Origin: Gemmatimonadetes bacterium 13_1_20CM_4_69_16 | Lineage (GTDB): Bacteria; Gemmatimonadota; Gemmatimonadetes; Gemmatimonadales; GWC2-71-9 | NCBI GenBank assembly: GCA_001919865.1 | Contig: MNIR01000064.1 | Location: 1 to 62,700, forward strand | Length of the DNA: 62,700 bases | Reading direction: 5' to 3' | Shown here: positions 1-55,770 of the stretch, piece after piece | Layout: every line of letters begins with the position of its first letter | Numbering within the stretch: the first letter of the stretch is position 1 | Translations under genes and position numbers: made by a program | The notes under the pieces: generated by a model | Database searches by the model: none | The model's input: only the letters and a program-made list of their open reading frames with translations | Told to the model about the DNA's origin: nothing

Positions 1-482
1 AACGCGATCCACGGCACCCCCGGCTGGCGCGAGCTCGAATCCAGCATGGCGAAGGGCGACGTGACCAGGTTCTTCAGGGTCCGCCACAACAGCCCGACAG
101 CAAGCCGGAGCAGACCCCAGATCCAGCCCACGAACACCAGGAGGAAGCGCGCCAGGCCGAACCAGTAAAACCACGCCATGCGGACCGCGTCCCACCAGGA
201 CATGAGCAGCGCCGCGAGAAAGCGTCCGCGACCTGAGCGGAACGGAATGGTGTAGAGCGAGACCATCGTGCCCCACACCCCCGCCACGAGCACTACCGCC
301 GGGAAAAACAGGAACAGAAACCTGCCGACCGCCCCCCAGAACGAACTGCCGCTGAGGACGAACTGGAACACGTACGCCTGCCAGTCGAGAATCCAGGAGA
401 GGCCGCCCCAGACCCAACCCCACACGGTCTGGAGAATCCAGCTCCACTGTGCGGTCTGAGCGGCGCCGAGCGGGTTTTGCAT
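1..482 (-). CDS. Trp-rich multi-pass membrane protein, C-terminus beyond the window
   Basis: The minus-strand frame opens at an ATG (nt 482) and stays open to the window edge, so 160 residues are visible and the C-terminus is missing. A strong Shine-Dalgarno stretch (AAGGGAAGGGA) lies about 11 nt before the ATG. The protein is very hydrophobic and rich in Trp and Phe. It has a helix near residues 50-75 (FLFLFFPAVVLVAGVWG) and two or more further helices around residues 85-130, with an amphipathic Trp-rich N-terminus before them. I do not recognise a family and see no catalytic motif. It is transcribed divergently from the GroES-like gene. The call as a real gene rests on the open frame, the RBS and the promoter; function is unknown. 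Confidence 0.7.
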   Translation of the reverse strand, partial: MQNPLGAAQTAQWSWILQTVWGWVWGGLSWILDWQAYVFQFVLSGSSFWGAVGRFLFLFFPAVVLVAGVWGTMVSLYTIPFRSGRGRFLAALLMSWWDAVRMAWFYWFGLARFLLVFVGWIWGLLRLAVGLLWRTLKNLVTSPFAMLDSSSRQPGVPWIA

Positions 483-583: not shown

Positions 584-599
584 CGTGATCTGGGTCACA
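584..599. promoter_or_regulatory. CRP/FNR-like palindromic operator candidate
   Basis: The sequence CGTGA-TCTGGG-TCACA matches the CRP-family consensus TGTGA-N6-TCACA in nine of ten arm positions. It lies between the divergent promoters of the membrane protein and the GroES-like gene, just upstream of the minus-strand -35 box, where an activator would bind. No CRP-family regulator is encoded in this window, so the link is by motif only. Confidence 0.4.
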
Positions 600-664: not shown

Positions 665-1048
665 ATGCGCGATGACGAGAATCCCAAGCGCTTGATCGTG
701 GTGGGCGACCGCGTACTGATCTCCCCGGAGGAGGGGGAGGAGCGCACCAACGTCGGGTTGTATCTGCCGCCCACCGCGCTCGAGAGCCGCCAGGTGCAGG
801 GCGGCCGCATCATCGCCACGGGGCCCGGCACGCCGATGACCGAGCCCGCCAGCATGGACGACGAGCCGTGGAAGATCCACGGCCCGGACGTGAAGTACCT
901 GCCGATGCAGGCCCAGGTCGGCGACTACGCGTTGTTCTTTCGCAAGGCGGCGGTCGAAATCACGTTCGAAGGGAAGAAGTACCTAGTGGTTCCTCAGGCG
1001 GCGATCCTCGTCTTGGTGCGCGAGGGGCTGGCCGCATCACCGGAGTAG
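665..1048 (+). CDS. GroES-like (Cpn10 fold) protein
   Basis: The 127-residue product has the GroES beta-barrel pattern: VVGDRVLISPEEGEERT near the start, VQGGRIIATGPGTP in the middle, and a C-terminal VGDYALFFRKAAVEITFEG-KKYLVV stretch, the usual place of the GDxVLF and EI..G..Y motifs. It differs from housekeeping GroES (about 97 residues): there is an insert of about 25 residues (PASMDDEPWKIHGPDVKYLP), and the mobile-loop GroEL-binding motif is not clear. No groEL follows. It is therefore probably a divergent co-chaperonin paralogue and not the main GroES. The start could also be TTG at 659. I prefer the ATG because the -10 box places transcription start there. The zinc-ribbon gene follows after 3 nt, so the two are translated together. 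Confidence 0.75.
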   Translation: MRDDENPKRLIVVGDRVLISPEEGEERTNVGLYLPPTALESRQVQGGRIIATGPGTPMTEPASMDDEPWKIHGPDVKYLPMQAQVGDYALFFRKAAVEITFEGKKYLVVPQAAILVLVREGLAASPE

Positions 1049-1051
1049 ACG

Positions 1052-1369
1052 ATGGCCGAACTAGGGTGGGCCCGGAGTCGCGGCGACAGCGCCGAGCAGG
1101 AAGGCCTGCGGCGTGGAGCGTGGTATCGCGTCGTGGAGGATCCGGAGAAACAGTGGGTGGTGCTGGACGTGCACCAGGTGGAAGTGCGCGTCCCCAGAGG
1201 CAATCTCGAGCTGCGCAAGGAGCGCCCGAAGGGGTGGAGCGTCGTGCACGAGCCGCATCTCGTGTGCCCGGGGTGTCACAAGCGCCAACACTTGTCGGGG
1301 CAGCCGAAGGAAGTCAAATGTTACGAGTGTGGCAATACGTTTGCCGTGGACTGGAAGGATCGGGCCTGA
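1052..1369 (+). CDS. Small zinc-ribbon protein of the LRRGAWYR family (copy 1 of 3)
   Basis: This 105-residue protein has no family name that I recognise. Its parts in order are a WAR tripeptide near the N-terminus, the box LRRGAWYRV (about residues 19-27), a predicted beta-rich segment ending in VPRG, a WSVV motif, and a C-terminal four-cysteine ribbon CPGC-x14-CYEC followed by VDW. The same order, spacing and cysteine geometry recur in the genes at 33383-33829 and 35017-35376, so this is a paralogous family. The ribbon most likely binds zinc. A small barrel plus a zinc ribbon would suit binding of nucleic acid or a ribosome or polymerase partner, but that is inference. It is coupled to the GroES-like gene and followed by a terminator. 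Confidence 0.75.
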   Translation: MAELGWARSRGDSAEQEGLRRGAWYRVVEDPEKQWVVLDVHQVEVRVPRGNLELRKERPKGWSVVHEPHLVCPGCHKRQHLSGQPKEVKCYECGNTFAVDWKDRA

Positions 1370-33382: not shown

Positions 33383-33829
33383 TCAGCCCGAGTGGCCTAT
33401 TCGCAGCCGCAGGGCGGCGTCGCGGGCGCGCAGGATCGCACGAGCGGCCGGCGTGTCCGACAGCAGCTCAAACACCCGCCAGTGCGAGTCGGACCACGCA
33501 ATCACAAACGCCTGTTTGCAGGCGGGGCAGCGCATGCTGACGGCTTGTTCCGGCAGCGCAGCCCGGGCCGAGCAACGCGGGCACACACCGTACCGCGAGC
33601 CCCAGTCGGCCGGCGGACTCGCGCCGCCGCGCAGCCGGGGCACTACGGACCACATACGAGGCCGAACCGGGAGCACTTGCAGGAAGGGACGCGGTACGGA
33701 GAGCGGCTGCCCGTGGACCTCGAGGACGGCTTCAGCGGTGCTGAGCTGCAGCACACGGTACCAAGCCCCGCGACGCAGGGGACATTGCGTTCGCGCCCTG
33801 ACCCTGGCCCATTGTTCTAATTGAGGCAT
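33383..33829 (-). CDS. Zinc-ribbon protein of the LRRGAWYR family (copy 2 of 3)
   Basis: The 148-residue protein shares the layout of the genes at 1052 and 35017: QWARVRA, then LRRGAWYRVLQL, SVPRPFLQVLP, MWSVVPRL, and the ribbon CPRC-x14-CPAC followed by FVIAWSD. It has an extra helical tail of about 35 residues (VFELLSDTPAARAILRARDA) that the others lack. It is convergent with the Spy-like gene. Function is unknown. Confidence 0.75.
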   Translation of the reverse strand: MPQLEQWARVRARTQCPLRRGAWYRVLQLSTAEAVLEVHGQPLSVPRPFLQVLPVRPRMWSVVPRLRGGASPPADWGSRYGVCPRCSARAALPEQAVSMRCPACKQAFVIAWSDSHWRVFELLSDTPAARAILRARDAALRLRIGHSG

Positions 33830-33938
33830 TGGCGCCCTCCGAGGGGCCGCAAGTGGCTAAGGCGAAGGGCGCGGCGGTGCTGCCAGCCCATTGGACACAC
33901 GATCTCGATCCGTGGGCGCGGGGGATGTGATATGGGAC

Positions 33939-33967
33939 ACTCTAGCGCCGCTCACTCGATCAGGCAA
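33939..33967 (-). promoter_or_regulatory. Promoter candidate for the zinc-ribbon gene at 33383-33829
   Basis: On the minus strand TTGCCT (33967-33962), a 17-nt spacer and TAGAGT (33944-33939) would start transcription near 33932, leaving a leader of about 100 nt. The rest of 33830-34054 shows no gene. Confidence 0.4.
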
Positions 33968-34919: not shown

Positions 34920-35016
34920 ACGCGCCCGGCGTGACCCGGGCCACGGCGCCCGCACGGTGGACCGGCTATTGTGCGGCGGCCTAGCGACTTGGCCCCACCA
35001 CACCCGAGGCAGCGCG

Positions 35017-35376
35017 ATGCAGACCTTTCAGTGGGCCCGCTTAAAGGAAAACGTCAAGACGCCGCTGCGCCGCGGCGCGTGGTACCGCATTGTCAAGCTT
35101 ACTGCGACCGAAGCAACGCTCGACGTGAAGGGCAAGCCGGTGGCTCTCCCGCGAGGCGAGCTCCAGCTGTCGCCCACCGCGGCGCTGCGCTGGACCGTCG
35201 TGCCGGCACCGAAGAACGCGCCACGCTTTCCCGCCACCTGGGGCGCGAAGTACGCAGTGTGCCCGAACTGCCGGGACCGCGCTCAGCTCGAAGGCCAGCC
35301 GGCCAACATGCGCTGCCACCGCTGCAACGGATTGTTTGAGATCGCCTGGAACGAGCTCTACCTCGCCAGCGCGTAG
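35017..35376 (+). CDS. Zinc-ribbon protein of the LRRGAWYR family (copy 3 of 3)
   Basis: The 119-residue protein reads QWARLKENVKTPLRRGAWYR at its N-terminus, then ALPRGELQLSP, RWTVVPAP, and the ribbon CPNC-x14-CHRC followed by FEIAWNE. Spacing between the two CxxC pairs is 14 residues in all three copies. It lies 1.2 kb from copy 2, on the other strand, with the tRNA and lipoprotein genes between. Function is unknown. Confidence 0.75.
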   Translation: MQTFQWARLKENVKTPLRRGAWYRIVKLTATEATLDVKGKPVALPRGELQLSPTAALRWTVVPAPKNAPRFPATWGAKYAVCPNCRDRAQLEGQPANMRCHRCNGLFEIAWNELYLASA

Positions 35377-52207: not shown

Positions 52208-52477
52208 AGCGCTCGAGCAGCTGCTCCTCCCCGCGGAGTGCACGCTGTGCCACACGCTGCTGTCGTTCTCCCGGTCGCGTTGGCTCGTGTGTGAGATCTG
52301 CCGCCACCGCTGGCGTGCCGTGCGGCCGCCCTGGTGCGGCCGGTGTGGCCAGCCCGAACCGTTGTTCGGCCCCTGTCGGCTGTGCGCGGCCTGGCCCGCG
52401 GCCCTGCGCGCGGCCCGCTCCGCCGTGTGGCTCGAGGGTGGCGCGCGCGACGCCGTGCACGCGCTCAAGTACCGTGG

Positions 52478-55770
<3,293 letters not shown>

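Follow-up and report, generated by a model that had tools for sequence, protein, structure and literature searches.

A multicopy family of small, predicted barrel-ribbon proteins with a conserved CRP-type operator in a Gemmatimonadota lineage

Three related genes and their predicted fold

The window, the whole 62,700-nucleotide stretch of contig MNIR01000064.1 that was analysed, carries three short genes (copies 1 to 3) that a preliminary description had grouped by a common order of motifs. All three open reading frames are real, copy 2 lying on the minus strand, which had been left unstated, and each contains the WAR, LRRGAWYR(V/I), VPR/LPR and W(S/T)VV motifs and a CPxC-x14-CxxC ribbon followed by a Trp (Table 1). 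Pairwise BLASTP comparisons aligned the proteins over their full length with 34-45% identity (E 5e-19 to 4e-37, well past chance), and 31 columns of the three-copy alignment are invariant, among them WAR, LRRGAWYR and CPxC...CxxC...W. The genes and proteins of this barrel-plus-zinc-ribbon family are labelled ZNR here. The four-Cys ribbon is nearly invariant across the members; the loop of exactly 14 residues between the cysteine pairs holds for all three window copies and for nearly all of 100 members, with 15-16 residues in a few of them. The dN/dS values (NG86) of ~0.14 for copy 1, ~0.15 for copy 3 and ~0.24 for copy 2 (0.13-0.24 overall) indicate that the proteins are kept by purifying selection. 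Genes were called with a codon-usage script in MAGs that are incomplete, and the low codon-usage score of ZNR genes was set aside as a signal because their Trp, Cys and Arg content confounds it.

Table 1. Positions of the ZNR genes, the Cpn10 gene and the operators in the window.
Feature	Position	Strand	Remarks
Operator of copy 1 operon	584..599	.	CGTGATCTGGGTCACA; 81 bp before Cpn10 start
Cpn10 (GroES-like) gene	665..1048	+	Heads copy 1 operon; 3 bp gap to copy 1
Copy 1	1052..1369	+	105 aa; low-copy branch; predicted barrel residues 6-66, ribbon 69-104
Copy 2	33383..33829	-	148 aa; expanded branch; C-terminal helical tail
Copy 2 helical tail	33395..33496	-	Residues 112-145; predicted helix; kept in orthologs
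Operator of copy 2	33926..33941	.	AGTGTCCCATATCACA on minus strand; 112 bp before start
Operator of copy 3	34930..34945	.	CGTGACCCGGGCCACG; one half-site mismatch; 87 bp before start
Copy 3	35017..35376	+	119 aa; expanded branch

All three copies match a 62-member family profile over their full length (E 7e-35 to 1.5e-49). The profile search, on which the proposal of an unnamed family had been made to depend, placed them in no characterised family. No Pfam or NCBIfam family scored above its curated cut-off for the three copies, the matches being of ribbon length only, and the copies belong to no PDB family, with sequence matches again at the level of the ribbon. PHROGs and PADLOC gave no full-length significant match; their matches were to the ribbon only, the best being to a Cas12f model (1.3e-6, in few members). 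A defence system was rejected, the PADLOC matches being confined to the ribbon. We found no paper on this barrel-ribbon family in the literature, and saw by eye no signal peptide or membrane segment in the members listed.

AlphaFold2, run on the family alignment, predicts the barrel and ribbon that had been expected. The model of copy 1 (mean pLDDT 88.0) has strands at residues 6-9, 24-29, 35-40, 43-48, 52-55 and 61-66; we read the six modelled strands as a small SH3-like barrel and residues 69-104 as a zinc ribbon, in which zinc is presumably bound. Copy 2 (pLDDT 85.8) has a similar barrel and ribbon in its model, and the extra helical tail suggested for it appears as helices at 112-115, 117-124 and 127-145, which are less sure (block pLDDT 67-77). 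The best Foldseek matches in the PDB are SH3-like barrels (Spt5 KOW, SH3 and retroviral integrase C-terminal domains), all of them weak, with every E above 0.05 and none covering both domains well; no relative has a solved structure. Several of the matched barrels are nucleic-acid-binding and many others are peptide-binding SH3 domains. The members are strongly basic: their median pI is 9.85 (70% above 9), whereas that of neighbouring genes is 7.0 (29%). The mean net charge is +5.9 on the barrel and +1.8 on the ribbon. In two members (L064:5757-6341 and the first member of L140) the C terminus is a long Arg-rich tail that contains repeated (E/D)RR units.

Copy number and genomic context

A family of three was an undercount. 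The source genome of the window (a soil bacterium; 2.82 Mb, 85% complete) contains at least nine scattered copies and its relatives up to ~22; the suggestion that the family matters to this lineage is upheld. The gene is present in 55 of the 102 genomes of the source's family-rank group, with one to ~22 copies each (22 in G157, 20 in G282, 18 in G214 and 13 in G114); incomplete MAGs make these counts minimum values, and in G282 and G157 the places with the lowest scores are fragments. Convincing matches beyond this group are limited to three genomes of one other family of the order, and those near E 1e-4 in further genomes are interpreted as matches to the ribbon. When copy 1 was scanned against 84,980 species, a search that detects close relatives only, Gemmatimonadota MAGs and one probable contaminant bin were returned. 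Single copies in two MAGs of a second phylum (one titled ANGP1, the other from the same phylum), on contigs of 14 kb and 4 kb and in 2 of 43 genomes, were put down to binning contamination.

A tree of 98 members, whose short alignments resolve few forks, separates a branch of 40 rows from one of 58. The former, which is old and low-copy, comprises the orthologs of copy 1, the members adjoining nrdJ (encoding a class II ribonucleotide reductase) and those from outside the family-rank group; the latter is the expanded branch and contains copies 2 and 3. The three window copies are not a single recent set, since copy 1 stands in a different deep branch. Gene context agrees with this split, in the Cpn10 linkage of copy 1 and the locus conservation of copies 2 and 3. 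The reported coupling of copy 1 to a GroES-like gene is supported by a Pfam match (PF00166, E 2.8e-12), the short gap between the genes and retention of the pair in orthologs from other MAGs. The sampled copy 1 orthologs have the Cpn10 gene before them and usually a helicase-like gene (recQ-type, named by eye) after them. The loci of copies 2 and 3 are preserved in three genera, and copy 2 adjoins an ECF-sigma-like/anti-sigma-like/Spy-like cluster conserved in several genera (the sigma and Spy-like names come from reading the sequence). The paralogs are old, vertically inherited and syntenic rather than recent duplicates, and spread as a mobile cassette was rejected on that ground. A phage or plasmid origin was likewise rejected, with nothing found among viral contigs or plasmids and phage matches that were weak and partial.

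Several observations concern the surroundings of these genes. The Cpn10 of the copy 1 operon is the second, divergent one of the genome, a better, canonical match being encoded on contig C54. A conserved gene pair (window 1-482 and upstream), neither gene of which has a Pfam match, runs divergently from the copy 1 operon and has a common operator region with it in sampled orthologs. The member of single-copy genomes (nrdJ region of L058, L059, L060 and L128) lies between nrdJ and an ispG-like gene, named from its sequence, and nrdJ-region members are often preceded by a conserved 61-aa protein. In two genera (L136, L150 and L155) the neighbours of ZNR genes include n52, a degenerate Crp-family protein of ~220 aa, and n51, which is small and conserved. 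Window positions 52458-53732 hold a 633-bp tandem duplication with copies 97-100% identical, either a recent duplication or an assembly artefact, which leaves a truncated GapA-like ORF (52959-53582) before a full gapA-like gene (53592-54599).

The peptide-binding SH3 domains among the Foldseek matches raise the possibility that the ZNR proteins are protein-binding adaptors, whose barrel would dock on RNA polymerase, sigma factors, ribosomal proteins or the client of a neighbouring gene. Every paralog would have a partner of its own and would act on it, like RbpA or CarD, instead of on nucleic acid. The helical tail of copy 2 and the conserved sigma-like cluster beside it would fit such a role. 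However, PhnA, RbpA and CarD Pfam matches are absent for the three window proteins at E up to 10, a search in which HMMER filters drop weak matches, and the strong basicity and Arg-rich tails speak against such adaptors. The context comparison found no constant partner gene across the paralogs, most of whose contexts share nothing. We consider adaptors possible, if unlikely.

A conserved operator and its candidate regulator

A previously unnoticed GTGA-N6-TCAC palindrome lies upstream of all three copies or of the operon head. The first hint was TGTGA/TCACA among the k-mer counts of upstream regions; other early k-mers, such as AAGGCGGCGGT, were discarded because they lay within the Cpn10 gene and stemmed from orthologs of copy 1. 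Palindromic EM on the ZNR upstream regions, blind to any given motif, recovered.GTGAcc..ggTCAC., and the same procedure on control promoter sets gave different, weaker palindromes. Since the first operator test had reused its own data, held-out genera were tested. With a matrix trained outside the genus, a site scoring 10 bits or more was present in 6 of the 9 ZNR transcription units of the source genome and in 2 of 54 nearby units (p 3.2e-5). The corresponding counts for ZNR and other units are 6/11 and 0/48 in the congener G114, 5/18 and 1/66 in G282, and 15/39 and 7/168 in distant genera. At 12 bits, sites occur in 34 of 95 ZNR-led intergenic regions, 3 of 299 others and 3 of 394 shuffles, and two of those three non-ZNR regions lie, in single-copy genomes, ahead of a kinase gene that immediately precedes nrdJ.

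Footprinting of the orthologous promoters of copies 1-3 gave a half-site identity of 0.96-1.00 against 0.63-0.66 for the remaining promoter, and in conservation the operator ranks 6th of 308 windows for copy 1, 1st of 205 for copy 2 and 2nd of 211 for copy 3. The half-sites of the copy 1 operon are identical in 8/8 orthologous promoters. As orthologous promoters are not independent, the argument leans on the within-genome tests. About half of the ZNR promoters are missing a strong site (53 of 95 regions fall below 9 bits), including those of the f3 members of genus g41, and a downstream motif search of ZNR genes yielded nothing convincing. GTGA-N6-TCAC also precedes unrelated genes of the source genome, which suggests that the ZNR genes are an over-represented but not exclusive part of a wider CRP regulon.

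A single clear Crp-family regulator of the source genome (L174:1054-1725, contig C61) exceeds the Pfam cut-off; its recognition helix is SRETVSR and its sensor retains GEMSLIDEEPRSA. The TGTGA half-site is read in E. coli CRP by three residues of RETVGR, namely Arg180, Glu181 and Arg185 (PMC11253593). The equivalents of R180, E181 and R185 are all present in the ortholog on contig C61, which is predicted to read the GTGA-N6-TCAC operator, an assignment made from recognition-helix similarity only.

The strong association of the site with ZNR genes, and the presence of the degenerate Crp-family protein n52 next to them in two genera, might be expected if the palindrome were bound by ZNR proteins in autoregulation, or by some dimeric regulator other than CRP. 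Against such a reader, half-site and spacing equal the CRP consensus, the CRP ortholog of the genome has all three base-reading residues, the predicted ZNR fold is without a helix-turn-helix, and the same type of site stands before unrelated genes. A reader other than CRP seems improbable.

Proposed role and comparison with known systems

Because most copies have in common a DNA switch of CRP type, CRP being a regulator that senses starvation, they may form a lineage-specific, co-regulated set. We propose a CRP-controlled, many-copy, lineage-specific family of small cytosolic nucleic-acid-binding barrel-ribbon proteins, a reading for and against which the chances seem to us evenly balanced; within it, the predicted fold and the putative co-regulation are well supported computationally. 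One CRP-type regulator, the predicted CRP ortholog on contig C61, would switch most of the scattered copies together through GTGA-N6-TCAC. The basic, Trp/Arg-rich barrel and the ribbon would bind nucleic acid, either RNA alone, or DNA/RNA in the machinery of transcription or translation, and the paralogs would be a tunable set of effectors deployed when carbon or energy is limiting (CRP conditions). Type-2 ribbons tend to be found in proteins that bind nucleic acid (PMC5906684), and this tendency, together with the high pI, the Arg-rich tails and the charge of the barrel, favours RNA or DNA binding, although a basic pI and a fold type are no proof of it, since SH3 barrels also bind peptides.

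The conserved pairing of copy 1 with Cpn10, and the single-copy members between nrdJ and the ispG-like gene, would also suit partner-specific cofactors, copy 1 serving the divergent Cpn10, others the class II ribonucleotide reductase or further partners, in which case the members would not share a molecular role. The contexts of most paralogs differ, yet sequence, charge and operator are common to them, so that we regard such cofactors as improbable. Zinc buffering or metallochaperone activity, which the nearly invariant four-Cys ribbon might suggest, is very improbable given a single structural-type site, a conserved barrel, no zinc transporter context noted and an operator of CRP rather than metal type.

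The proposal of a CRP-controlled nucleic-acid-binding family could be extended to a global response layer not described before in Gemmatimonadota, in which a single CRP-type regulator drives a dispersed battery of 9-22 paralogs, specific to the lineage and acting on RNA, RNA polymerase or the ribosome. This extension is doubtful; if true, the layer would be comparable in logic to the cold-shock protein families. With up to ~22 copies, purifying selection and one operator, the family offers a concrete, testable regulon in a soil phylum that has been little studied. A name for it would give hundreds of hypothetical proteins an annotation, and the family opens a route to asking what part cAMP/CRP control plays in Gemmatimonadota and why the small ribbon protein multiplied there.

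PhnA/YjdM, RbpA and CarD are small bacterial ribbon or barrel proteins. They resemble the ZNR proteins in small size and small barrel, and PhnA in its ribbon too; they differ in the missing Pfam match noted above. The SH3-like barrels of Spt5 KOW and of the retroviral integrase C-terminal domain are alike in predicted fold and basic charge, but with E above 0.05 and no sequence relation, and they have no ribbon attached in this order. Bacterial chromo-like SH3 domains (PMC5906684) would be expected in secreted proteins, a point on which the members listed were inspected by eye, as described above. The type-2 zinc ribbons of nucleic-acid-binding proteins (TFIIS, RPB9, eL43/L37ae, eS27 and TiaS; PMC5906684) have two CxxC knuckles in common with the candidate type-2 ribbon here. 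Among PDB sequences the TiaS ribbon gave the best match (E 0.0013), and the S27e and L37ae profiles match weakly, but the likeness is confined to the ribbon, leaves the barrel unmatched and is below curated cut-offs throughout. CRP regulons with TGTGA-N6-TCACA sites share the palindrome and the spacing, together with a CRP ortholog that here carries SRETVSR; the present, predicted set differs from known CRP regulons in that a dispersed paralog family is over-represented among its sites.
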